Positions 12,127 to 38,065 of a stretch of 39,240 bases of DNA are shown here, one piece after another. The position numbers and the translations under genes are program-made. Source of the DNA: Patescibacteria group bacterium (GTDB taxonomy: Bacteria > Patescibacteriota > Patescibacteriia > WFTA01 > S139-112). The DNA lies in the NCBI GenBank assembly GCA_015485695.1, contig WFTB01000026.1:1-39240 (forward strand), in the 5' to 3' direction. Below the pieces are notes generated by a model. That model worked only from the letters and a program-made list of their open reading frames with translations. It made no database searches and was not told the origin of the DNA. The first letter of the stretch is position 1; each line of letters opens with the position of its first letter.

Positions 12127-14157
12127 ATGCAAATGACAAATCAACCAAAAAAGGCGTTAAACAATATCGCCAAATTTTTCATAATCGTCGTTGTGAGTCA
12201 TTTGTTTTTTGCTCCAACGGCTCTTCTTGCCAAGGAGCCCTCAGACCCGTTTTATCCTCAGCAAATATATCTATCGAACATATACGCGCCTCAAGCATGG
12301 AATACCGTAACTGACGCGTCGGATATAATAGTTGCCGTAATAGATGCCGGTGTCGATATAGATCATGAAGATTTAAAAAACAATATATGGAAAAACGACG
12401 ACGAAATACCTGGGAACGGTATAGATGATGATGGAAATGGATTTATAGACGATGTTTATGGGTGGGATTTTATAAACGACGCTCCCGACCCGAGACCCAA
12501 ATTCGAAGACGGGTTCAGCGAGTTTGCGATGCAACACGGCACGGTTGTATCCGGTATTATAGGAGCGTCCGGCGGTAACGGAATCGGAACGTCCGGAATA
12601 GCGTGGAAAGTGAAAATAATGCCTTTAAGGGCTCTGAATTCAAGAGGCACGGGTGATATAGTCGCCATAGTGAGAGCGCTAAATTATGCCCGTCAAAACG
12701 GAGCGGACGTGATTAATCTGAGCCTGGTCGGAGACGAATCATCGAGCATGTTGGAGATAGAGTTGGACCAGGCTTACAAAGAGGGAATCGTCGTCGTGGC
12801 GGCATCGGGCAATGAGGGAATAAATTTGAACGAATTTCCAAGATACCCCATATGCAATAAAGGCCCCAAAGGAGAAGATTGGATTCTGGGAGTGTCGGCC
12901 ATTGATTTTGCGGGCAGAAAAGCGAAGTTCGCAAACTACGGAGATGACTGTGTTGACATAAGCGCTCCGGGGGTGAATATTTTTTCAACTCAATTTACGA
13001 GCAACCTCGAACCGGGATACGCGAATCCGTATATGGGAAAATGGTCCGGAACTTCCGTGGCCGCACCTCAGATAACCGGAGCCGTGGCTATGATAAAATC
13101 TCAAAACCCGAACCTGTCGGTTGATGAGATACGAGAAATCATAATATCGGAAGCCGACAACATTGATGATGTTAACCCATTGATACCCGGGATGCTGGGT
13201 GGTGGACGAATCAACCTCGAGAAGATAATGCAAAACGACCTTATCAAGTTCAATCAAAATGTAAAAGAAAGAGCTATTGTGACCGGAGCGGGTCCGGGAG
13301 GCGGTCCCCATGTCAAGGTATATGATTCACGAGGTGTTGTGCGCCAGCAGTTTTTCGCATACGATGACCCGAATTACAGTGAAGGAGTATATGCGAAATT
13401 GGGCGATGTGACGGGGGACGGCAAAACAGAAGTCGTAATATCTTCAGGCAAGGGTGTTGCCCCGATTATACAAGTTTACGATTCAACGAATAAGAAACTT
13501 TCTTCTTTTTTGGCTTATGAAAAAGACATGCAAAGCGGTGTTGAATTGAGCGTGTTTGACGTTGATGCGGACGGAAAATCCGAAATAATCACCGTGCCGA
13601 GGAACGGTTCTTCACCTCTTGTTCGCGTATTCGACGATTCCGGAAAATTAAAGAGAGAGTTTTTCGTGTTTATGCCGTCTCTTAAAAGCGGGGCTCGCAT
13701 GGATGTCGCCGACGTTGACAATGACGGTCTTGGCGAAATAGTAGTGGTACCGGACGCGAATTTGACTCCGGTGGTTAGAGTATACTCTTATCACGGATTT
13801 CTGGAACGGGAGTTTTATCCGTATGACACCGGCGTGACCAGGATTTTGACCGTTGGCGCCGGCCCCGGGATAATCGCGGTTGGAAACGGCAAAGGAAACT
13901 CCCCCGAAGTCAAAACCTTCAATTACAAAGGTGATGTGATTGATTCGTGGATTGCTTATTCCGATTCATTTAACGGAGGAATAAACGTTTCCGTGTCCGA
14001 TATCGATGATGATGGTATTTTGGAAATAATCACAGGACCTCAGAGAGGTGGCGGTCCTCATTTGAGAATATTCAACCCTTCTGGTAGAATTATTGCACAA
14101 TGGATGGCGTATAATACGGGGTTCAAAGGAGGTATCAGCGTTGGGTTGTCTAAATAA
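12127..14157 (+). CDS. Secreted subtilisin-like S8 peptidase with C-terminal FG-GAP/VCBS-like repeats
   Basis: Signal peptide; catalytic D 'VIDAGVDIDHEDL', H 'QHGTVVSGIIGA', S 'SGTSVAAPQITGAVA'; repeated 'GDVTGDGKTEVVI', 'FDVDADGKSEIITV', 'ADVDNDGLGEIVVV', 'SDIDDDGILEIITG'. Confidence 0.93.
   Translation: MQMTNQPKKALNNIAKFFIIVVVSHLFFAPTALLAKEPSDPFYPQQIYLSNIYAPQAWNTVTDASDIIVAVIDAGVDIDHEDLKNNIWKNDDEIPGNGIDDDGNGFIDDVYGWDFINDAPDPRPKFEDGFSEFAMQHGTVVSGIIGASGGNGIGTSGIAWKVKIMPLRALNSRGTGDIVAIVRALNYARQNGADVINLSLVGDESSSMLEIELDQAYKEGIVVVAASGNEGINLNEFPRYPICNKGPKGEDWILGVSAIDFAGRKAKFANYGDDCVDISAPGVNIFSTQFTSNLEPGYANPYMGKWSGTSVAAPQITGAVAMIKSQNPNLSVDEIREIIISEADNIDDVNPLIPGMLGGGRINLEKIMQNDLIKFNQNVKERAIVTGAGPGGGPHVKVYDSRGVVRQQFFAYDDPNYSEGVYAKLGDVTGDGKTEVVISSGKGVAPIIQVYDSTNKKLSSFLAYEKDMQSGVELSVFDVDADGKSEIITVPRNGSSPLVRVFDDSGKLKREFFVFMPSLKSGARMDVADVDNDGLGEIVVVPDANLTPVVRVYSYHGFLEREFYPYDTGVTRILTVGAGPGIIAVGNGKGNSPEVKTFNYKGDVIDSWIAYSDSFNGGINVSVSDIDDDGILEIITGPQRGGGPHLRIFNPSGRIIAQWMAYNTGFKGGISVGLSK
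13273..14154 (+). repeat. Degenerate intragenic repeats encoding FG-GAP/VCBS-like blades
   Basis: About 5-6 copies of a (D-x-D-x-D-G-x-x-E-I-(I/V)) plus (VKVYDSxGxxxxxFxAY) pattern; near-identical 'GAGPGGGPHVKVYD' and 'GPQRGGGPHLRIFN' at the two ends. Confidence 0.75.
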
Positions 14158-16347: not shown

Positions 16348-16965
16348 ATGTATCAAAAGTTTAGCCAAAAGACGATTGAAGATTTTTCGGAATCAAACAT
16401 AGAATCAATGTACGATCAGGGTTTCGTGTTTACCAGAATCGCCAAAGGAACGATGAACCAAATCGAATCCGTAAGGGTTCGTCTTGACTCGTTTGAGCTT
16501 TCAAGCGAAAACCGAAGAATTCTGAAAAAGTTTGACAACATGAACGTATTCAAAAAACCGCTTCCGTATGATGATTATTCTTGGGAGATTGGGAAACTCG
16601 CGAAAAGTTTTTACAAAACAAGATTCGGGTCGGAAATATTTTCCGCCAACAAAATAAAAGAGCTTTTTACAGATTCGAAAAAGTCGAACATGAACGGAGT
16701 ATTGGTTTTCACAATACCGGAATACGGCACGGTCGGGTATTGCTTGACTTTTGACACGGAGCGAATATTGCATTACTCTTACCCGTTCTATGACATGAAT
16801 AAAACGACAGACAAAAGCACTGGAATGGCAATGATGGTCAAGTCCGTGCTTTGGGCGAAAGAAAACGGCAAAAAATTCATTTATCTTGGAAGCTTTGATA
16901 AGTACAAATTACAGTTCAAAGGAATCCAAGCGTATCACCCGGAAGATGGTTGGCGCGAAAGATAG
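16348..16965 (+). CDS. Arginyl/leucyl-tRNA--protein transferase-like GNAT-fold protein
   Basis: 'MYDQGFVFTRIAKGTMNQIESVRVRLDSFELSSENRRILKK' and 'KFIYLGSFDKYKLQFKGIQAYHPEDGW' resemble ATE/Bpt N- and C-terminal motifs, but without their CxxC. Confidence 0.6.
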   Translation: MYQKFSQKTIEDFSESNIESMYDQGFVFTRIAKGTMNQIESVRVRLDSFELSSENRRILKKFDNMNVFKKPLPYDDYSWEIGKLAKSFYKTRFGSEIFSANKIKELFTDSKKSNMNGVLVFTIPEYGTVGYCLTFDTERILHYSYPFYDMNKTTDKSTGMAMMVKSVLWAKENGKKFIYLGSFDKYKLQFKGIQAYHPEDGWRER

Positions 16966-16985
16966 AGCGGCATCAAAGCTACTCG

Positions 16986-17003
16986 AGAGCCTAACGGCTC
17001 TTT
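16986..17003 (+). terminator. Short hairpin with T-run, weak terminator candidate
   Basis: AGAGCC-TAAC-GGCTCT followed by TT(T). Confidence 0.3.
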
Positions 17004-17029
17004 GCGCATTGAATCTTTAAACGATTGAT

Positions 17030-18439
17030 TTGAATATGAAACACGTTCACTTTATAGGGATATGCGGAGTTGCCATGGCTCCGATAGCAAAGATGATGGC
17101 GGACCTCGGATGGAAGGTTTCGGGGTCTGATTCGGGTTTTTATCCTCCCGTTAGCGATTATTTGAAAAAACACCCGGAAATTGTTTTTTATCCCGGATTT
17201 CATCCTGAAAAAATGGGCAACCCCGATCTTGTCGTTGTGGGAGGTTTTATCAGTATGAAAAACCCCGAATTTATTTATGCCAGAAACAATAACATACCCT
17301 ATAAATCATATCCGGAGGTATTGGAAGAATTTTTGATAAAAGAGAACTCCGTTGTGTGTTCGGGAACTTACGGTAAAACAACCTCAACAGCGCTTGCGAC
17401 ACAAATATTGAAACTGGACAACCTGAATCCGTCATACATGTTTGGCGGAATAGTTTCCGGATTTTCCGACAGTGTTGGCGTGACGGATTCTGTTTGGTCC
17501 GTTGTTGAAGGAGACGAGTACATATCAAGTCGTTGGAACCCCGTGTCAAAGTTTTTTTATTACAAACCAAAATACCTGTTGCTTACGTCGGCATCATGGG
17601 ATCATTCGGATGTTTTTCGTTCCGAAGAAGAATTCGTGGAAAATTTCAGAAAACTGGTGCAGACAATGCCGAGTGACGGAATCGTGGTGGCGAACAGGCT
17701 CGATGAAAATCTAGACAAAGTCATAAAAGACGCTCCATGCAAAGTTGTCAGATATCAAGGGCGAAAAAGCGACGAAGCAAACGTTTATAATGTAGTTTCT
17801 CGCAGTCCGGACGGAGATTTGACTCGTATATCGATAGAATGCGAGGCAAACGGATTCTCCGAGAGCTTTGAAACGACCCTTATCGGGTCGCACATGATTG
17901 ATAACATTACCGGTGTTGTCGCTCTTTTGAATGAGGCTGGAATAGGCGTAAAATCCATGCAAGACGGAGTATCTGAATTCCGGGGAGTGAAAAGGCGATT
18001 GGAAATTCGAGGGAGGACAAGAAACGGAGTAACGATTATTGATGACCTGGCGCACTCGCCGGCGAAAGCGCTCGCGGGATTGCACGCTTTGGGGCATCGG
18101 TTCCCTCTTCGTACGCGAATTTTCGTCGTATACGAACCCAATGTGGGCAACAGGACGATAGAATCTCTCCCCGGCTATGATCGCGCCTTCGGATTGGCCC
18201 ATGAGGTGATAATACCGCGCTTATCCAAAACAAAGACAAAAAAAGACGAAACCAGAATAAACGGAAAGGAATTGGCGAAAGTTATAGAAAAAACCCAAGA
18301 AAACGTTAAATACATCGAAGATGACGATGAGCTTGTCAAGTACATCAAAAAAAACACCCGAGAAGGCGATGTCGTTGTGTTCATGGGAGCTCACGGATTT
18401 AGGGGCATGATTGAACAGGTGCTTGAAAGGGCCGGCTGA
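17030..18439 (+). CDS. Mur ligase, Mpl/MurC-like (UDP-MurNAc:peptide or L-Ala ligase)
   Basis: 'VHFIGICGVAMAPIAKMMADLGWKVSGSD', P-loop 'GTYGKTTST', 'IDDLAHSPAKALAGLHAL'. Confidence 0.88.
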   Translation: MNMKHVHFIGICGVAMAPIAKMMADLGWKVSGSDSGFYPPVSDYLKKHPEIVFYPGFHPEKMGNPDLVVVGGFISMKNPEFIYARNNNIPYKSYPEVLEEFLIKENSVVCSGTYGKTTSTALATQILKLDNLNPSYMFGGIVSGFSDSVGVTDSVWSVVEGDEYISSRWNPVSKFFYYKPKYLLLTSASWDHSDVFRSEEEFVENFRKLVQTMPSDGIVVANRLDENLDKVIKDAPCKVVRYQGRKSDEANVYNVVSRSPDGDLTRISIECEANGFSESFETTLIGSHMIDNITGVVALLNEAGIGVKSMQDGVSEFRGVKRRLEIRGRTRNGVTIIDDLAHSPAKALAGLHALGHRFPLRTRIFVVYEPNVGNRTIESLPGYDRAFGLAHEVIIPRLSKTKTKKDETRINGKELAKVIEKTQENVKYIEDDDELVKYIKKNTREGDVVVFMGAHGFRGMIEQVLERAG

Positions 18440-18543
18440 CTCCGACCCTTAATATTTTTGTAACTTGCTTGTTGCAAGAAAATCCAAACGTGCGACACAA
18501 TAGTCAGGCAGACTGATTGTCAAATTTGAAATTTAGATCGATA

Positions 18544-18726
18544 TTATTTTTCAGTCTCAACGATTTCGGGATTGTTTATCTCGCGCGCACCATCGTTGTC
18601 TCGTATATCATGAGCTTCAAGAGTTATACCGCATGTGGGGCATTCGAAATGTTCACTTTCTTCGAGAGACTCATGGTCAAGGTTTATATCGTTTTTACAT
18701 TCCGGACAAATTGCGTGATATGACAT
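18544..18726 (-). CDS. LysW-like small zinc-ribbon protein (amino-group carrier protein-like)
   Basis: 60 aa; 'CPECKNDINLDHESLEESEHFECPTCGITLEAHDI' with two CPxC pairs and an acidic tail; C-terminus ...EIVETEK rather than EDWGE. Confidence 0.6.
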   Translation of the reverse strand: MSYHAICPECKNDINLDHESLEESEHFECPTCGITLEAHDIRDNDGAREINNPEIVETEK

Positions 18727-18779
18727 ATTGATAATTTAACGTTAAAACTTCAAAAATCGAAAGATTGCTCGACCAATAC

Positions 18780-18808
18780 ATTCTAGACAAAAATAGAAGC
18801 ATAGTCAA
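18780..18808 (-). promoter_or_regulatory. Sigma70-like promoter for the LysW-like gene
   Basis: On the - strand: TTGACT - 17 bp - TAGAAT, about 54 bp upstream of the start codon. Confidence 0.6.
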
Positions 18809-18847
18809 TTGCTAAAATACGTTTTATCTATCAGATAATAAAACACT

Positions 18848-19753
18848 ATGGAATCAGATTTTACACCGCTTGAACAATATGATTCGCTTGCTAGACGGCT
18901 CGGACTTGAAAAGCTGTTTATCAAGCGCGAAGATCTCAATCCTTCAGGCTCGCATAAAGACAGGGGAGTGTGGGGAATGATGCTCGGGCACATGGATGAA
19001 GGTGTCTCAAATTTCGTTATTTCTTCGTCCGGAAATTCGGCAATATCCGCTGCGTATTTTATGCAAAAATCGCAAAACAACGAAAATAACAAATTATACA
19101 TATACATCTCCCCGAGGATGTCGAATGAAAAGCGCGAACGACTTGATGAAATAGTCAATGACAATCCCAATATTGAAGTACGTTTGTCGGAACGGGCGAA
19201 AAGCGATGCATTTGCATTTGCAAAGGAGAGTGGTTTCCGGTTGTTGCGCGCGTCGGTCGATGACAGAGCGCTAATCGGTTATGGTGACTTGGCTCGCGAG
19301 ATAAACAATCAGATTGATGGCGACTTATCATATCACATATTCATCCCAACATCATCGGGGACTACGGCTCTGGGGCTTTACAAGAGTTTTAAGACTGACA
19401 ATATTGGGCAAACACGCGAAATATCGATACACATAGCGCAATCAGTGGCGTGTAATGTAATCGCAAAAAAATTTGATTCCGATTTTACTCCGTCAGACAC
19501 GTCGTTGGCGTCCGCCATAGTGGATACGATAGGGCATCGCAAAAAAGAAGTAATCGAGGCGGTGAAAGATTCAAACGGATTCGGATGGGTAATAAGCGAT
19601 GACGACCTCATAAAAGCCAGAGAGCTTCTGGAATCCTATACGGATATTTGCGACGCAGGGTGGGACTCTCTCTTGTCGTTGGCGAGTCTTATGAAAGCCA
19701 TGAAGACAAGAAACGACATAAAAAACGCCATATTGATATTTACCGGCAAATAA
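18848..19753 (+). CDS. Fold-type II PLP-dependent enzyme (short threonine synthase/cysteine synthase-like)
   Basis: 'LFIKREDLNPSGSHKDRG' (PLP lysine), 'SSSGNSAISAA', 'IPTSSGTTALGLY'; only 301 aa. Confidence 0.82.
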   Translation: MESDFTPLEQYDSLARRLGLEKLFIKREDLNPSGSHKDRGVWGMMLGHMDEGVSNFVISSSGNSAISAAYFMQKSQNNENNKLYIYISPRMSNEKRERLDEIVNDNPNIEVRLSERAKSDAFAFAKESGFRLLRASVDDRALIGYGDLAREINNQIDGDLSYHIFIPTSSGTTALGLYKSFKTDNIGQTREISIHIAQSVACNVIAKKFDSDFTPSDTSLASAIVDTIGHRKKEVIEAVKDSNGFGWVISDDDLIKARELLESYTDICDAGWDSLLSLASLMKAMKTRNDIKNAILIFTGK

Positions 19754-19754
19754 A

Positions 19755-20942
19755 ATGCAATTTTTTGTAACAAACAACATAGAACGCGTGTCCGGAATGA
19801 ATTTTGAAAACCATCCGAATTTGCGTATAATCTCAAACAACTCTCCATTGGCGGAAGTCTTGCTTGAGAAATATCCGGACAGGATCATATTAAACACGGA
19901 TGATGAGTTTTTGAGCACCCTGGATTTGATGAAAAAATTCTCCGATAAGATAGATTCTGGATCCAAAATAGCGGTATTCAAAAACACAATTCATATTCAA
20001 CGTTTTTGCGAACAAAACGGATGGATTAATGTTCATGCCGACGCGGAAATCGGGAAAATGCTCGAAGACAAAGTGAGTCAACACTCTTGGCTCGTCGACA
20101 ACGACTTTGGTTCCGTGATTCCGAAAACATATACCGGTTTCGTTGAGTCTTTTGAATTTGAAGACTTGGGCGAGCGACTTGGCTTGCCGTTTATATTGCA
20201 ATACAATTCCGGGCATACGGGCTCAGGGACAAAATTAATATCGAATTCCGATGATTGGAGCATGGAATTGAGAAAATTTCCAAAACGAGATGTTAAAATA
20301 TCACGATTTATTGAAGGTGATACATATACGATAAACGCGTGCGCGATGGGCGATAAAATTCAATGCGGAAAAACAAGTCTGCAAATTACCGGGATTCCCG
20401 ATTTGACTGATAATCCTTTCTCGACAGTCGGCAATGTCTGGGGTGAGGATTCTTATTGGGTTCACGATAAGATAAAAAATATGGCTCAAGAAATCGGAAA
20501 AGCCATGATATCCATCGGTTGGAAAGGTTTGTTCGGCATAGACGTAATCAAAGAATCGAAAACCGGAAAGTTGTTTCTTATAGAAATAAACGCTCGACAA
20601 ACAGCGTCCGCCAGCTTTGAAAATCGTCTTGCCAATTTACAAAAAGCGTCCGGTCCTCTCGATTGGTTAATGCGCTCCTTGTTTGACTCCGATTGCGATT
20701 TTCCCGTGGGTGAGACTTATTATAACGCCTCTCAGTTATCGGTAAGAAAAAAATCCGGAAAATTCCACGAAAAGTACGGCGATTTTGACAAGGTTGGGGA
20801 GTGGGACGACGAACTCGGCGCATTCGAAGAAACCCCTACATTTAGTCTTCCACCTCAATCAAACAAGGTATTTGTAATACCGAAGGCAACTGCTTCAGAA
20901 ATTATTCGTATACAATCTCGAAAGCCTTTGATTTGGCATTGA
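19755..20942 (+). CDS. ATP-grasp ligase
   Basis: 'LPFILQYNSGHTGSGTKLI', 'FIEGDTYTINACAMGD', 'GLFGIDVIKESKTGKLFLIEINARQTAS'; 1 nt downstream of the PLP gene. Confidence 0.85.
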   Translation: MQFFVTNNIERVSGMNFENHPNLRIISNNSPLAEVLLEKYPDRIILNTDDEFLSTLDLMKKFSDKIDSGSKIAVFKNTIHIQRFCEQNGWINVHADAEIGKMLEDKVSQHSWLVDNDFGSVIPKTYTGFVESFEFEDLGERLGLPFILQYNSGHTGSGTKLISNSDDWSMELRKFPKRDVKISRFIEGDTYTINACAMGDKIQCGKTSLQITGIPDLTDNPFSTVGNVWGEDSYWVHDKIKNMAQEIGKAMISIGWKGLFGIDVIKESKTGKLFLIEINARQTASASFENRLANLQKASGPLDWLMRSLFDSDCDFPVGETYYNASQLSVRKKSGKFHEKYGDFDKVGEWDDELGAFEETPTFSLPPQSNKVFVIPKATASEIIRIQSRKPLIWH

Positions 20943-21014
20943 TGGCGATAAAAACGTGTTTTTTCTCGGTTTTTTTGAAAAAAGCCGATTATATGCTACA
21001 CTGATAAACGCCTT

Positions 21015-21752
21015 ATGGATGAATTATTGTCAAAAAACGGCATTGAAACGATAGACAAATATGCCAATCTGCCGATAGGTGAGCGCGCAATTCGTTGCCC
21101 ATACTACAAGAACTCGACGCTGGCAAGGGCATTGTCGGTTTATTCCGGAAAAGGGTCACCGCAAGAAATAGTAGACGAAGTATCTGAACTGTCCCATAAA
21201 GAACGAATCGATTTTTCTTCATGCTCCGACAGTCAGGTTCGGGATTTTTTGATTGAACACGGAATCGGTATTGACTGTTCCGGGTTTGTCAGCAATGTGT
21301 TAAACGATATAAACCCCGAAATCATACGCGGTATACAGCTGGACAAAGCGCGCAAAAATCCAATCATGAACTGGTATGTTAATCGGTTTCGAAAAATATC
21401 AAACATATCCGTTAAAACTTTGACATCCGATAAAAACGCGCATGAAATAAAAAGCCTTCACGATATAAGGCCGGCGGATATGATAGAAACCAGAAACGGA
21501 CAGCATGTTTTGTTGGTATTTCGTGTTGTTATGGCTGAAGATTATGTGAGAGAAATCGAATACGCTCACTCTACGATGTACTACGGAAAAGAAAACGGAG
21601 TCAGAAAGGGGACTATCAAAATAACTCAAAAAGACAAAGACTTGGGAAATCAAGAATGGACGGAAGTTGACGATAATACGGGAGTGAATTATACCCACGA
21701 AGGTTATCTTGATGGCGGGAGAGTTTTCCGGTTAAGATATTTTACTAATTGA
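21015..21752 (+). CDS. NlpC/P60-like cysteine peptidase/amidase without signal peptide
   Basis: 'GIGIDCSGFVSNVL' Cys motif, 'ETRNGQHVLLVFRVV' His motif, 'YAHSTM'; no hydrophobic N-terminus. Confidence 0.65.
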   Translation: MDELLSKNGIETIDKYANLPIGERAIRCPYYKNSTLARALSVYSGKGSPQEIVDEVSELSHKERIDFSSCSDSQVRDFLIEHGIGIDCSGFVSNVLNDINPEIIRGIQLDKARKNPIMNWYVNRFRKISNISVKTLTSDKNAHEIKSLHDIRPADMIETRNGQHVLLVFRVVMAEDYVREIEYAHSTMYYGKENGVRKGTIKITQKDKDLGNQEWTEVDDNTGVNYTHEGYLDGGRVFRLRYFTN

Positions 21753-21756
21753 TTAC

Positions 21757-22869
21757 ATGACTGAAATAATCTCACAAAGCTTATTATTCCTCGTGGCAAG
21801 CGCGTTTCTCGGTTTTGTTTTGGCGAACCCTCTTATTGAGGTTTTAAAGTCTCTGGGAATAACTCGCAGAGGGGAATACGACGACACGACCATAATCGAA
21901 GGAAGAGTGGGCAAGGTCGGAACCCCGATAATGGGTGGCGCTTTGGTTATAATGGTTGTCGCTATAATAACAATATTGTTTAACTGGGACAGGAGGTTTA
22001 CATGGGTACCAATGGGAGTCATGGCTCTATCCGCTCTTTTGGGGGGAGCTGATGATTTGTTGAACATATTCGGGCACATACGTCGTATTCGAAAAATAGA
22101 TCACATAAAACGTTTGTCTCGAGTTCACAAACACGCATACATGCGCGCGTGGTTTAAATTGCAAATTCCGTGGACAAGAATCAAACGTTTCTTTCTGTTC
22201 ATAGGTTCAAGACCCGGAAAAGGAATACAAGTCCATGAAAAGTTGTTTTTTCAACTTGTGGCGGGCGCAATAACGGCCTGGTGGTTGTTTGTGAAACTTG
22301 GTCCCGAATGGGAGAGGATGTGGATTCCATTTGTCGGGGAGGTCGCTATAGGCTGGTTGCTGATTCCGCTTATCATATTGGTTGTCATGGCTACGGCAAA
22401 TGCGGTTAATTTTGCCGACGGCTTAGACGGATTGGCGGGCGGAACGCTCATAACATCGTTCGGCGGATTGATGATTGTTGCTTGGTTGCAAGGTAATATT
22501 TATTTTGCGGTAATGAACGCAACGGTAATAGGCGCTCTTCTTGCTTATACTTATTTCAATGTTAAGCCTGCGCAGTTTGAGATGGGGGATATCGGCTCTC
22601 TGGGTCTCGGGGCATTGCTTGCCGTAATGCTGATAGCTCAAAACAGAATTTTATTACTTCCTTTTTTCGGATTTATTTTTTTTCTTGAGCTCGGGTCCGT
22701 TATTTTGCAACTTTTTTGGAGACATTTTTTCGGTAGGCGCCTATTTAAGATGTCTCCATTGCACCATCACTTGGAAATAAAAGGTTGGTTGGAAGAAAGA
22801 ATAGTTCAGCGTTTTTGGATTCTGAACGCAATAGCGGTATTTATAGGGATCTGGCTTTCCGTGCATTAA
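21757..22869 (+). CDS. mraY: Phospho-N-acetylmuramoyl-pentapeptide transferase
   Basis: 'GRVGKVGTPIMGGALVI', 'NAVNFADGLDGLAGG', 'EMGDIGSLGLGALLA', 'FKMSPLHHHLEIKGWLEERIVQRFWI'. Confidence 0.96.
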   Translation: MTEIISQSLLFLVASAFLGFVLANPLIEVLKSLGITRRGEYDDTTIIEGRVGKVGTPIMGGALVIMVVAIITILFNWDRRFTWVPMGVMALSALLGGADDLLNIFGHIRRIRKIDHIKRLSRVHKHAYMRAWFKLQIPWTRIKRFFLFIGSRPGKGIQVHEKLFFQLVAGAITAWWLFVKLGPEWERMWIPFVGEVAIGWLLIPLIILVVMATANAVNFADGLDGLAGGTLITSFGGLMIVAWLQGNIYFAVMNATVIGALLAYTYFNVKPAQFEMGDIGSLGLGALLAVMLIAQNRILLLPFFGFIFFLELGSVILQLFWRHFFGRRLFKMSPLHHHLEIKGWLEERIVQRFWILNAIAVFIGIWLSVH

Positions 22870-22914
22870 AATCAAGCCACGACAGCGAGCTTTGAATAAT
22901 CCGATGTTTTACAG

Positions 22915-22941
22915 GTTCGAGCGTCTTCGCGCGAACTTTTT
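22915..22941 (+). terminator. Intrinsic terminator after mraY
   Basis: GTTCG-A-GCG tctt CGC-G-CGAAC followed by TTTTT. Confidence 0.7.
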
Positions 22942-27654: not shown

Positions 27655-30561
27655 TTATATTTTAGAAATCGCCAAATTCAAAGACGATTTTTTGATTGAT
27701 GTCTCGGAACCTAGGACCGAAATCGCCCCATTGTCGCGAACCAATTCGAACACATCCGAAAGTTTAACCAAATCTTGAAGTCGAGTTCCAAAGACAGTAT
27801 CACGAATCTCTTGGCGCATTTCATCCGTTATACCCGTAAGATGTCGGACAAATGCGGTAAACCCCCTTTCGTCCGGTCGCATATACGGGCTTATCCCCCC
27901 TATTGTTGAGATTTTTATTCTCTCCAATTCGTCGTCGTTTAATTCCAAATTTTTCAAACAATCCGGAACAAAATCGAATCTGGCAATAGTTTCGGAAATG
28001 TTCGGATCTCGATATGAAGCGAATACGCACATTCCTGTTTGCTTGTCGAACATGCAATATCCTCCATAAGCCCCGCCTTGAAGCCGTACCGTATCCCAAA
28101 TGTACACACTGTTCAAAAACTTCACGGCAACTAGCAAAGACGCGTCAAAATCATATCCCAAATTATATAAATTGGCGCCTTTTCCAACATAGTTTACCTG
28201 TGTCGGTATTACCAACCCTTCATCGTTCGGCCGCAAAGGCTCTTCCCAATCATTCTCTGTAGCGGGTTTGTTCGTTTTGAATTCGGACGCAAAAGAGCGT
28301 ATGTCGGACTTAATTGATTCAAACACGGTCGAAGAGCAAGTTATGTTTATTATCGGTACGCTTTCCTTTATTAGCTTTTCTTGAATCTCTCGAAGATCGG
28401 AAAGGACGCTCTCCCATTCATTGTCCATTTTTTCAATAAGAGAACGAACAAAACGCAATTGCTCTATTCCCCCGAGCTGTTCCGCGATATATCCGGATTG
28501 ACTGAACATGGATTTAAGCCTGCTTGCCACGACAGCGCTTCCGGAGCTTATTATGCCGGATTCAAGTGCCACCTTTTCTTCCATGAGAATTTGCCTTAAT
28601 CGTTTTTTATCGTCAAATCGAGTGTCGAACAAAGCGTCTTTTACTATATTAAGCAATTCAGGAACACGCTCAATTACGGAACGACTCCTCATGAACAAAT
28701 ACGCCACAACGGAAGCATCTTTCCCGTGAGTCATTACTGCGTGTTCAAATCCCACTCCTCCAGTGTTTTCATCTATTCTCTGAGTGAAGCTTATGTAATC
28801 TTCTGAGGATGTTCCCAATTTCGTGAGCGCGGAGCTGAACAAAGGCATATAAGGCAAAAGTCTTTTCGGTAATACCTTCATGTCAATCCCCAAGTCAAAA
28901 TAGACTATATCGTTTGTTTCTATGTCGTGATGAAGTACTTCAATTCCCGATATGGTGTCCGCGTCCGTCGGGATTGTTTCTATCGTTTTATCAAGGTCGG
29001 ATAATTTAAGAGTTGGTATTTTCGCAAGGTCTTCTTTTGAATCCAGAGTGTTTTGCCATAATAAGAGCGCGCTGTGTTCTTCTTTGATTTTGTTCAATTC
29101 TTCCTTGCTTAAAGACGAATGTATTTTATCAAGTTTATTTCTCTCTTCCGATTCTCTCTTTTCCACGAATTCGGTGTCCGGTTCGAGAACGACCAATGTC
29201 CTGTGCGTATTGTCGATTAATCGTTCTTTTATGATTTTTTCGAAAAACAAAGGTTCAGTCCGTATTTTTTCTTTTATCTTTTCAAGTTTTGACTCAAACG
29301 AAAGAACGTCTATCGGATCGGCGCCGTAAATCCAGCCCCCCAAAATCCTGATATACAGATTGAGTCCCTTTGGCTTCGGAAATCCGGAAGAGCTACTCGC
29401 TTCTCTAAATTCGAAAGTTGTGACATTCATGGCGGCGTTTATCATTCTGTCGCTTATCCCCTTTTCACCTTTACATAGAGATTTTAAAGTGCCAAGAACC
29501 AACAATTCAAGTTTTTCGGCGTCAGACGGTTTTATGCCTTTCAGCCCCACACTGATACATTGCTGTCGAAACTCGTCTTCCGGACTTAACGCGGACACGA
29601 AATCGTCCCCCAATCCGGAATCCAGAATCGCCTTTCGCAACGGCGATGCGGGCGTGCCGATTAAAATATAACCAAGAATAATCCAGGACAGACGCTCAAT
29701 CTCGTTTGACGGCTCTCCCAACATCCAATTTATCGACACCATGCCCTTGTCCCCCTCTTTTGCGGGATACGTTTCGATTAAACGACGAGGTCCCGAAAAA
29801 CGAGGTTGTAATGGAATCTCGGACAGTGTGTTTTCGCGCTTGAAATCTTTAAGGTAAGAGTCAATAATTTCGAATCTAAGCTCCGGGTCATCGTCTCCGT
29901 AAAAATAAATAAAACTGTTCGACGGATGATAAAAATCATTGTAAAACTCTTTGAATTTTTCCCATGTCAAATCCGGAATAAATCTAGGGTCTCCGCCGGA
30001 TTCAACCCCGTAAACGGTGTCCGGGAAAAGCGATTGGATAGATACCGTTTCCAATATGCGCTCGGCGTCCGAATACGCTCCTTTCATTTCGTTAAACACA
30101 ACGCCTTTGTATTTCAGTTTTTCGTTTTCTATCTCATAGTGCCAGCCTTCTTGCAAAAATGCTTCTTTCTTCAGCAAAGGATAAAAAACCGTGTCCAAAT
30201 ACACGTTTACGAGATTGTAAAAATCTTTTACATTTGCGCTCGCGCACGGATAAACGGTTTTATCCGGATAAGTAAAAGCGTTCAAAAAAGTATTAACCGA
30301 ACTGCCCAAAAGTTGTTTGAAAGGGTCTTTTACCGGATATTTTCGTGAGCCGTTCAATACCGAGTGCTCAATTATGTGCGCAACTCCGGTGGAATCGCCT
30401 GGAGGCGTCGGAAAACCTATTCCGAACACTTTATTTTTATCATCGTTTACAAGTGACAAGAAGCGAGCTCCGGTTTTTATGTGCTCATACAAAAAAGCCT
30501 CGGTTCTCAATTCTTCCACAAATCGTTCTTTTATCAAATTAAATTCATTTTTTGCTTGCAT
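27655..30561 (-). CDS. M16C (presequence protease/PreP-like) zinc metallopeptidase
   Basis: Inverted motif HxxEH in 'VAHIIEHSVLNGSRKYPVKDPF'; 968 aa with M16C_associated-like middle region. Confidence 0.92.
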   Translation of the reverse strand: MQAKNEFNLIKERFVEELRTEAFLYEHIKTGARFLSLVNDDKNKVFGIGFPTPPGDSTGVAHIIEHSVLNGSRKYPVKDPFKQLLGSSVNTFLNAFTYPDKTVYPCASANVKDFYNLVNVYLDTVFYPLLKKEAFLQEGWHYEIENEKLKYKGVVFNEMKGAYSDAERILETVSIQSLFPDTVYGVESGGDPRFIPDLTWEKFKEFYNDFYHPSNSFIYFYGDDDPELRFEIIDSYLKDFKRENTLSEIPLQPRFSGPRRLIETYPAKEGDKGMVSINWMLGEPSNEIERLSWIILGYILIGTPASPLRKAILDSGLGDDFVSALSPEDEFRQQCISVGLKGIKPSDAEKLELLVLGTLKSLCKGEKGISDRMINAAMNVTTFEFREASSSSGFPKPKGLNLYIRILGGWIYGADPIDVLSFESKLEKIKEKIRTEPLFFEKIIKERLIDNTHRTLVVLEPDTEFVEKRESEERNKLDKIHSSLSKEELNKIKEEHSALLLWQNTLDSKEDLAKIPTLKLSDLDKTIETIPTDADTISGIEVLHHDIETNDIVYFDLGIDMKVLPKRLLPYMPLFSSALTKLGTSSEDYISFTQRIDENTGGVGFEHAVMTHGKDASVVAYLFMRSRSVIERVPELLNIVKDALFDTRFDDKKRLRQILMEEKVALESGIISSGSAVVASRLKSMFSQSGYIAEQLGGIEQLRFVRSLIEKMDNEWESVLSDLREIQEKLIKESVPIINITCSSTVFESIKSDIRSFASEFKTNKPATENDWEEPLRPNDEGLVIPTQVNYVGKGANLYNLGYDFDASLLVAVKFLNSVYIWDTVRLQGGAYGGYCMFDKQTGMCVFASYRDPNISETIARFDFVPDCLKNLELNDDELERIKISTIGGISPYMRPDERGFTAFVRHLTGITDEMRQEIRDTVFGTRLQDLVKLSDVFELVRDNGAISVLGSETSIKKSSLNLAISKI

Positions 30562-35734: not shown

Positions 35735-36826
35735 TCAGTTCATTATCGATAGCACGATATCGGATATTCTTTCCGCCGAGTTATTTGGCATTATCCGAGA
35801 TATGTTTTGAGAAAGTTTCTTCCTTTTCTCTTCGTCATTTATCAGTGTTTTTATTTCCTCGATAAACCTTTCGCATTCTTCGTCTTTGATTTTTCGATTA
35901 AAGTTTAGGACTATCGCCGAACCTTTGTCTTGATAGTAAATCGCGTTTTTCTCTTGATGAGTGTTCGGCATCGGTATAATCACGCACGGTTTTTTCAGTA
36001 CGGACAATTCCGAAAGAGAAGACATTCCGGCGCGCGTGACAACAATATCCGAAACCGCGTAAGCGTCTGACATATTGTGGCTTAAAAACTCAAACATCTT
36101 ATACGCTGGATTCGAATCGCTTTTGGAATTCAGATTCCCATTAGAGCGACCTCCGGTTATGTGAATAATTTTGCAGAATTTCGTTATTTTATCCAAGGTC
36201 CTTGAGATTAATTCGTTTATCTGCTCGGATCCGGTTCCGCCTCCCATCACAAGAACCGTGGGTAAATCCGTTTTCATGTCGAATACGTCCAATCCGGATT
36301 CGGACGGCTTTAGGATATCTTTTCTGACCGGATTGCCGGTTGCAACGGATTTTTCGCCGAAATGTTTTTTTTGCGATTCGAACGTGAGTGTTATCGCTTT
36401 CGCGAAAGGTTTCATCAGCTTGTTCGAAAGAGACGGAACGATGTCTTGCTGATGAATAAGCGATGGTATGCGCAAAACCCACCCTGCGATAACAATCGGA
36501 ACGGACACCGAAGCTCCCGCGGACAATATTATCGAAGGTCTGTTAAACAACAAATAAACAATCGCTCTTAAAAAGGCGTAAACGAATACAACGGGCTCGA
36601 TTACGGTGCGCCACGAAAAATAACGACGAAGTTTCACGGACGGGAAAGCCGTAAAAGGTATGTCGTACTTTTCAATCATTGCTTTTTCCGGTCCACCGTT
36701 CGTGCCTATCCACGCGAACTTGATATTTTCATCGTTTTTCAGAGACTCGTATACGGCGATAAGAGGCGATGTCGGACCTCCGGTTCCCCCACTTGTCATT
36801 AGAACCGTTTTTTTATCAGTAGCCAT
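35735..36826 (-). CDS. murG: UDP-GlcNAc--MurNAc-(pentapeptide) pyrophosphoryl-undecaprenol GlcNAc transferase
   Basis: 'TSGGTGGPTSPLIAVYESLK', 'PSLIHQQDIVPSLSNKL', 'VTRAGMSSLSELSVLKKPCVIIPMPNTHQEKNA'. Confidence 0.95.
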   Translation of the reverse strand: MATDKKTVLMTSGGTGGPTSPLIAVYESLKNDENIKFAWIGTNGGPEKAMIEKYDIPFTAFPSVKLRRYFSWRTVIEPVVFVYAFLRAIVYLLFNRPSIILSAGASVSVPIVIAGWVLRIPSLIHQQDIVPSLSNKLMKPFAKAITLTFESQKKHFGEKSVATGNPVRKDILKPSESGLDVFDMKTDLPTVLVMGGGTGSEQINELISRTLDKITKFCKIIHITGGRSNGNLNSKSDSNPAYKMFEFLSHNMSDAYAVSDIVVTRAGMSSLSELSVLKKPCVIIPMPNTHQEKNAIYYQDKGSAIVLNFNRKIKDEECERFIEEIKTLINDEEKRKKLSQNISRIMPNNSAERISDIVLSIMN

Positions 36827-36841
36827 AAAATGCGAAGTGAT

Positions 36842-37996
36842 TTATCTTGATTTGACGGGTTTTTTCCAACGCCTAGCGGAGCTTTTCTTGATTATGTGCC
36901 CAGTTTGCCTTGATATATTAATCAAAATACCGAAAGCGGCAAGTGTTGTCATCAAAGCGGTTCCTCCGTGCGATATGAACGGCAAAGGTATTCCGGTCAG
37001 GGGTAACAGTCCTATTATCGCTCCCATGTTCACAAACGCTTGCCAACCTATCCACCCGACGATACCGGTTGCGACGATTCTGCCATACATGTCCGGAGCG
37101 TATCTGGCGATACGCAACCCTCGCATCACGAAATAAACAAACGCGATTACGATAATCGTGGATACGAAAAACCCGAGCTCTTCCGCCGCTATGGCGAATA
37201 TCGAATCTCCCGCGACTTCCGGTAAGTATGCGAATTTTTGCCTGGAATATCCAAGACCGAGCCCGAACAAACCGCCGGAACCGACGGCCAAAATAGATTG
37301 CCTCAGTTGATATCCTATGCCTTGGACATCGGTATCCGGTTGCAAGAACACCGTAAGTCGAGCCATTCTGTAAGGCGCCGCTTTTATCAGAGCCACAAAC
37401 CCTGCTATCCCAAGAGCTCCTATCGAGGCAAGATGCGCGATCGGCGCCCCCGCAGCGAAATACGCAATGAGAGATATCGCGACTATGACGGTAAGTGTGC
37501 CTATGTCCGGTTGAAGTATTATAAGTCCTGCTATCACCGTCAAAATAACGGTGAACGGAACCAAACCGACCATCATATCCGATATTCCTTGCGAACGTTT
37601 TTCCAGCCACCCCGCCAAATACAGCAAAAAAGTAAGTTTAACTATCTCGGACGGCTGAAGAGAAAATCCGCCGATTATTATCCAACTCCTGCTCCCTCCA
37701 AGCTCCTGCCCTATTCCGGGGACAAACACGGCGACAAGCAACAATATGGACAGTAAAAGCAATGAAAAAGAATATTTTTTCCATACTTGATAATCAATTC
37801 TATACAAAACAAAAAAAGCGACAATACCCGGCAACAGCCCAAACAAGACTTGTCGTTTTAGATAATAGAAAGTGTCGCCGAATTTTTGGAATCCCAGAAC
37901 GGAAGACGCGGATGAAAGTATTATAAGACCGGCCACGACAAGAAATATCGTGACTCCGATAAGTTGATAATCCGGAGCGTGAAGTTTTCGTTTCAT
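36842..37996 (-). CDS. ftsW: SEDS family peptidoglycan glycosyltransferase (FtsW/RodA)
   Basis: 'GGSRSWIIIGGFSLQPSEIVKLTFLLYLAGWL', 'LPLTGIPLPFISHGGTALMTTLAAFGILINISR'; start trimmed to MKRKLHAPDYQ. Confidence 0.93.
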   Translation of the reverse strand: MKRKLHAPDYQLIGVTIFLVVAGLIILSSASSVLGFQKFGDTFYYLKRQVLFGLLPGIVAFFVLYRIDYQVWKKYSFSLLLLSILLLVAVFVPGIGQELGGSRSWIIIGGFSLQPSEIVKLTFLLYLAGWLEKRSQGISDMMVGLVPFTVILTVIAGLIILQPDIGTLTVIVAISLIAYFAAGAPIAHLASIGALGIAGFVALIKAAPYRMARLTVFLQPDTDVQGIGYQLRQSILAVGSGGLFGLGLGYSRQKFAYLPEVAGDSIFAIAAEELGFFVSTIIVIAFVYFVMRGLRIARYAPDMYGRIVATGIVGWIGWQAFVNMGAIIGLLPLTGIPLPFISHGGTALMTTLAAFGILINISRQTGHIIKKSSARRWKKPVKSR

Positions 37997-38065
37997 GCCA
38001 AAAGTATAGCAGATATGGCACAAATATAAAAAACCACATTAAGTGGCGATGTTTGTGTAGAAGAA

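Follow-up and report, generated by a model that had tools for sequence, protein, structure and literature searches.

A seven-gene locus of Patescibacteria that probably starts the cell-wall peptide without MurC and MurD

Introduction

How could a bacterium that builds a cell wall begin the peptide of its peptidoglycan without MurC and MurD, which are regarded as near-universal and as drug targets? The question is raised by a locus of seven genes on contig WFTB01000026.1 (contig 26) in the 0.98-Mb genome of a Patescibacteria group bacterium (assembly GCA_015485695.1, genome G000 below), which was compared with its relatives in Patescibacteria. The whole stretch analyzed, 39,240 nucleotides, is called here the window. 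The locus encodes an ATE/Bpt-like GNAT protein, a Mur ligase, a LysW-like zinc-ribbon mini-protein, a fold-type II pyridoxal phosphate (PLP) enzyme, an ATP-grasp ligase, an NlpC/P60-like protein and MraY (Table 1). A previous sequence-only reading of the window had connected these genes with synthesis of peptidoglycan precursors, and the connection is now supported by a conserved gene neighborhood and by the absence of MurC, MurD and MurI. The seven-gene set probably makes the first part of the cell-wall peptide along a route not previously described; no description of such a pathway was found in the open-access literature searched.

Absence of MurC, MurD and MurI

Wall synthesis is to be expected in this bacterium, since murG (35735-36826) and ftsW (36842-38023) lie on the minus strand of the same contig. 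Its genome encodes exactly three Mur ligases, namely the locus one, a MurE-like protein (C29) and a MurF-like protein (C6). Three Mur ligases were also found in most other genomes with the cluster, and the control genomes G006 and G008 have MurC, MurD and MurE. We surveyed MurD in 276 genomes of the class, 20 of which have the ATP-grasp ligase of the cluster. A MurD match was present in 248 genomes and exceeded the cut-off in 231, with none of the 20 ATP-grasp-positive genomes but 231 of the 256 others among the latter (Fisher p 2e-18, kinship ignored). Seventeen of the 20 lack any MurD match, and the weak matches in the other three (1e-26 to 1e-28) resemble another Mur ligase. The same exchange is seen within one family (f62), where MurD is missing from the cluster-bearing G125, whereas G099 has MurD and no cluster. 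Similarly, by model score, MurI was over the cut-off in none of 22 cluster genomes versus 12 of 20 MurD-bearing controls.

These patterns of gene presence make it very probable that the locus replaces MurC and MurD. Many bacteria that build a wall, forming a large group, seem to manage without the two enzymes. The wider proposal, that stem-peptide synthesis starts with this locus, which would stand in for MurC and MurD and, in most of the bacteria that have it, for MurI as well, is one we favor with moderate confidence. The MurD2/MurL route of Xanthomonas (PMC8788868) keeps MurC and a MurD-like ligase, whereas the examined cluster genomes have neither, and it was rejected because the window genome has no MurD-type ligase.

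Conservation of the locus in Patescibacteria

Homologues of the ATP-grasp ligase were taken from the same class and their neighborhoods were mapped; GTDB genomes were scanned as well, yielding 134 relatives, the best 80 of which were used for locus counts. Where named, these 80 are Patescibacteria (Magasanik-, Uhr-, Colwell-, Taylor-, Wolfe- and Nomurabacteria), some records being labeled only "bacterium". Synteny recurs in about 20 genomes of the class, which together with the GTDB loci argues that the arrangement is not due to chance. All seven genes stand in one order in 27 of the 80 GTDB loci. The individual partners of the ATP-grasp gene are present in 75 (NlpC-like), 57 (mraY), 50 (GNAT), 43 (Mpl-like ligase), 38 (zinc ribbon) and 34 (PLP enzyme) of them, and most absences look like contig ends, as judged by overall look rather than locus by locus. 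The gene order of the window is also found in G001 and G020, and families f19, f57 and f64 have a rotated order: ATP-grasp, NlpC-like, mraY, GNAT, Mpl-like ligase, divergent zinc ribbon, PLP enzyme. A query with E. coli murB matched in 36 of the 80 loci; murB adjoins the cluster in many loci, and murA in one. In addition, the ATP-grasp and NlpC-like genes are fused in seven open reading frames (two from one genome), and the GNAT and Mpl-like ligase genes in one.

Co-occurrence was examined in 265 genomes of the class, with ATP-grasp proteins counted at E below 1e-60. The lysine-ended zinc ribbon and the ATP-grasp ligase occupy the identical 18 genomes. The NlpC-like protein is present in 16 of these, plus G257, and the GNAT protein in 15 genomes, every one with the ATP-grasp ligase. 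The sequence-only reading had listed a LysW-like, carrier-type protein as a member of the locus and had named conservation of the PLP, ATP-grasp, NlpC and LysW-like neighborhood as the point to check; both the membership and the neighborhood are borne out by these comparisons.

More distant relatives of the same genes occur elsewhere. In G268 (family f87; L125:7079-10901) a PLP/ATP-grasp pair, distant kin of that in the window, adjoins a MurD-like Mur ligase of 556 aa (202 bits against a cut-off of 212); this genome also has MurD, no zinc-ribbon carrier was seen at the L125 locus, and the locus is possibly a related but different module. Distant ATP-grasp homologues of about 500 aa (E about 1e-29) are found in MurD-bearing genomes of family f8 (G081, G111, G153 and G172).

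The Mur ligase

Mur domains were detected in the locus ligase at 1e-14 to 1e-16. The proteins aligned with it were Mpl and MurC of E. coli and two MurCs of Patescibacteria, diagnostic residues being taken from the literature (PMC3060825). An Mpl-specific insertion after GDEY is shared by the aligned Mpl-like ligases and E. coli Mpl and is a gap in MurC, and the alanine-binding HRxxR of MurC is absent from the locus-type ligases, which have EPNxGNR instead. On the phylogenetic tree all locus-type ligases group with Mpl, apart from MurC (support 97/95), on long branches. The protein is under the cut-offs of both the Mpl model TIGR01081 (235 bits versus 389) and the MurC model TIGR01082 (263 bits versus 335), and the exact (S/T)AFFDKRSK of Mpl is not kept in it, the corresponding motif being approximately (S/A)RWDxxxKF. 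Assignment as MurC was rejected on motif and tree, and by these features the locus ligase is of the Mpl type. It shares with Mpl the domain layout, the insertion and the tree position, but differs in its score, in the altered motif and in its place within a biosynthetic gene cluster, in genomes without MurC. Since the peptide that an Mpl enzyme attaches is already complete, this type of ligase suits a pathway in which peptide synthesis comes first.

An Mpl-type ligase could also point to salvage, in which host-associated cells import the stem peptides of others and the four remaining genes have unrelated roles. Recycling is a known function of Mpl as well as of cytoplasmic NlpC/P60 enzymes (PMC3060825, PMC2954226), and salvage would account for the ligase type together with the missing MurC, MurD and MurI. 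It leaves unexplained the 18 of 18 co-occurrence of zinc ribbon and ATP-grasp ligase, the PLP enzyme, the GNAT protein and the ATP-grasp/NlpC fusions; moreover, family f40 has the ATP-grasp, zinc-ribbon, PLP, GNAT and Mpl-like genes yet no NlpC-like gene. We consider salvage improbable.

A lysine-ended relative of LysW

Four cysteines (C7, C10, C29 and C32) are invariant in the zinc ribbon of the LysW-like proteins, which is followed by a variable stretch and a tail, both ends of the protein being conserved. The LysW model gave 15 bits on the window protein (cut-off 53). In LysW the tail EDWGE ends with an acceptor Glu that holds the cargo by its amino group (PMC10433800). The sequence-only reading had assumed this carrier chemistry on a C-terminal Glu, which does not fit, as the tail ends in Lys in all 49 distinct homologues, and likewise in 18 of 18 in the class survey; the ending EGK is present in 43 of the 49, nearly always as DEGK. 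A terminal Lys would be acylated by the carboxylate of the cargo, leaving its amine free, a requirement of PLP enzymes and aminoacyl-tRNA transferases alike.

The proteins share with the LysW/ArgW system (LysX/ArgX ATP-grasp, LysZYJ, LysK) a four-Cys zinc ribbon of about 55-60 aa, a conserved acidic tail and an ATP-grasp ligase beside it. Unlike that system, the locus has a DEGK-like tail instead of EDWGE, a ligase of the ATP-grasp_3 kind and ties to peptidoglycan genes, and it lacks kinase, reductase and aminotransferase partners. Judging from the invariant terminal Lys, the protein seems reasonably likely to be a covalent carrier.

A carrier could be loaded in another way, the ATP-grasp ligase adding amino acids to the alpha-carboxylate of the terminal Lys, as in PEARL and LysX systems, with the tail then processed and cut off. 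LysX activates the carboxylate of its carrier (PMC10433800), pearlins are described as built on a carrier peptide (PMC9303977), and a conserved tail with an exact C-terminal residue would fit. However, an amide-blocked amine bars formation of the PLP Schiff base, and the invariant Lys side chain would be needless, which leaves this extension a very unlikely solution.

The ATP-grasp, PLP, NlpC-like and GNAT proteins

An AlphaFold model of the ATP-grasp ligase (predicted local distance difference test score, pLDDT, 84.7) retrieved PurK (4e-19), PylC (2e-16), RizA (7e-16) and also biotin carboxylase in a Foldseek search; residues K106, D263, E277, N279 and R281 are invariant among its homologues. 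PylC joins a carboxylate to the epsilon-nitrogen of lysine (PMC11467909), forming this amide with a D-amino acid. The two have the ATP-grasp fold in common but only about 11% identity in the structural alignment, and the acceptor in the locus would be a protein. The modeled likeness is a fold similarity and no proof of substrate. Replacement of Ddl by this ligase was rejected for the window genome, which encodes a true Ddl of its own (376 bits against a cut-off of 246); Ddl is absent from several cluster genomes and from a few controls. Sequence searches of PDB brought no informative matches to the profiles of the ATP-grasp, NlpC-like and GNAT proteins.

The PLP enzyme has the Schiff-base Lys in GSHK and the loop SSSGN, with invariant residues in the homologue alignment. 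Its profile matched threonine synthase best among PDB sequences (5e-22), and also aspartate racemase (5e-12) and serine racemases. Such matches allow another scheme, where the PLP enzyme racemizes free glutamate or makes another amino acid, a RizA-like ATP-grasp enzyme makes a soluble dipeptide for the Mpl-type ligase, and the zinc ribbon serves just as a subunit or chaperone. The fold matches include RizA, and the Mpl-type ligase would suit a preformed peptide. We regard this scheme as improbable too, the terminal Lys (49 of 49), the NlpC-like peptidase with its fusion to the ATP-grasp ligase and the GNAT protein all being unexplained by it.

The closeness to threonine synthase, along with the disappearance of MurD and MurI, would likewise agree with a different stem peptide having another PLP-made residue instead of D-Glu at position 2, in line with the non-canonical amino acid of the sequence-only reading. 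This idea loses most of its appeal with MurE, which acts on the side-chain carboxylate at position 2 and is undiverged: its identity is 42.8% among cluster genomes and 42.9% between these and relatives that have MurD. What is passed on to MurE is thus probably the usual dipeptide L-Ala-D-Glu, and an unusual second residue appears most unlikely. At the next position, the MurE specificity loop is EDPY-type, not DNPR, in the window genome (L109:9532-10881) and most relatives, with EDPR in G020. The EDPY-type loop occurs in cluster and non-cluster genomes alike, and in EDPY-type genomes a residue other than meso-diaminopimelate is probable at stem position 3.

In the NlpC-like protein, the triad C88, H164 and H185 stands in the order of the family and is invariant across 20 homologues. 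The NlpC/P60 model matches 16 of the 20 (best 1e-5), with the window protein below threshold (13 bits versus 23); its hhalign comparison to MepS/MepH gave 95.5% and E 1.6e-8. Asp/Glu-Cys-Ser, seen at the nucleophile of gamma-D-Glu-specific NlpC/P60 enzymes (PMC2954226), is kept. Absence of a signal peptide, the Cys-His-His triad and Asp/Glu-Cys-Ser are shared with YkfC-type enzymes; unlike these, the protein has no SH3b domains that could be found and no Tyr-x-Trp, has a long insertion and in some genomes is fused to the ATP-grasp ligase.

Finally, the window GNAT protein is arginyltransferase/ATE_C-like (1e-10, under the ATE_C cut-off), and 17 of 17 homologues match the ATE_C and arginyltransferase models (best 1.6e-17). 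Judging from the start of the match, at position 77 of the model, the protein appears to lack ATE_N.

Proposed pathway

From the gene set, its co-occurrence, the absence of MurD and (by model score) MurI, the Mpl type, the Lys terminus and the fusions, all observed by comparison, we infer the following reactions and their order. The ATP-grasp ligase would activate the gamma-carboxylate of Glu and join it to the epsilon-amine of the C-terminal Lys, which would make the zinc ribbon a "carboxyl-group carrier", a mirror image of LysW. The PLP enzyme, needing a free alpha-amine, would epimerize the tethered Glu to D-Glu, and the GNAT protein would then add L-Ala from Ala-tRNA to this amine. The cytoplasmic NlpC/P60-like peptidase would cut the gamma-D-Glu-Lys bond, releasing L-Ala-gamma-D-Glu, and the Mpl-type ligase would join the peptide to UDP-N-acetylmuramic acid, possibly before the cut, while it is still tethered. 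MurE, MurF, MraY and MurG would continue as usual.

That the stem peptide is started on a LysW-derived Lys carrier, with Glu epimerized, capped with Ala from Ala-tRNA, and the dipeptide released and joined to UDP-N-acetylmuramic acid, in place of MurC, MurD and MurI, is a tentative proposal; that exactly these substrates are used in exactly this order is doubtful. If the carrier is real, the LysW fold would have been put to a novel use, binding its cargo through the carboxylate. D-Glu would come from a source not known before, and the cell-wall peptide would, unexpectedly, originate on a carrier and with the help of tRNA.

Several observations weigh against this pathway. PylC stands about 30th in the ATP-grasp fold search, and the PLP profile is best against threonine synthase. 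A Foldseek search with the model of the NlpC-like protein found no NlpC/P60 or PDB match, so this assignment rests on sequence, and the upstream Tyr-x-Trp of YkfC was not seen in the NlpC-like proteins. The window genome has an Asp/Glu racemase-family gene (contig 19, L244:9361-9975, cut by the contig end; TIGR00035, 157 bits, over cut-off) that could supply D-Glu, in which case the PLP enzyme need not be an epimerase. Family f40 (G040 and G127), whose Mpl-like ligase is present elsewhere in the genome, misses the NlpC-like gene, and in two cluster genomes of family f19 that were searched the GNAT gene is absent, a DUF1611/DgcN-like gene standing in its place (L031:10760-11857 and L042:11363-12499; 213 bits, cut-off 480); neither step is thus indispensable in this form. 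The cluster genomes are moreover related, belonging to seven GTDB families, so the counts are not independent, strong as the association with MurD absence is. DgcN is part of a D-Glu pathway in Shewanella (PMC10845958), and by analogy the f19 gene gives a hint of D-Glu as the cargo.

Layout of the locus

All seven open reading frames are intact at the coordinates of the sequence-only reading (16348 to 22869), whose gene order and family assignments hold on checking the frames and profile matches. Its gaps of 1 nt between the PLP and ATP-grasp genes and of 4 nt between the NlpC-like gene and mraY are right; 72 nt separate the ATP-grasp and NlpC-like genes. The terminator that it placed after mraY is real by hairpin energy and U5 tract, whereas a pattern scan for promoters and terminators gave no excess over shuffled sequences and missed this hairpin.

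Table 1. Features of the locus in the window
Feature	Position	Strand	Evidence
ATE/Bpt-like GNAT aminoacyltransferase, 205 aa, apparently without ATE_N	16348..16965	+	ATE_C/arginyltransferase model matches
Mpl-type UDP-MurNAc:peptide ligase, 469 aa from TTG; in-frame ATG at 17036	17030..18439	+	insertion, motif, tree
Divergently encoded LysW-like zinc-ribbon mini-protein of 60 aa, ending in ...EIVETEK	18544..18726	-	Zn_ribbon_LysW over gathering score
Codon of invariant C-terminal Lys, proposed attachment residue	18547..18549	-	homologue comparison
Fold-type II PLP enzyme, 301 aa, threonine-synthase/serine-racemase-like	18848..19753	+	PALP 7e-33
ATP-grasp ligase, 395 aa, proposed carrier loader	19755..20942	+	ATP-grasp_3 6e-8, over gathering score
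Signal-less NlpC/P60-like cysteine peptidase, 245 aa	21015..21752	+	triad Cys88/His164/His185, hhalign
mraY, 370 aa	21757..22869	+	TIGR00445, 1.8e-50; 172 bits, cut-off 192
Intrinsic terminator of the PLP-to-mraY unit	22913..22941	+	hairpin 22913-22938 then U5; -12.6 kcal/mol, z -2.6

Two other genes of the window were noted. A subtilase with FG-GAP repeats is encoded at 12127-14157, and in genomes of family f57 (L030, L034, L037, L040 and L043) the cluster is flanked by genes that match the C-terminal repeats of this protein. A presequence-protease-like M16C peptidase of 968 aa (27655-30561, minus strand) is encoded in this reduced genome.

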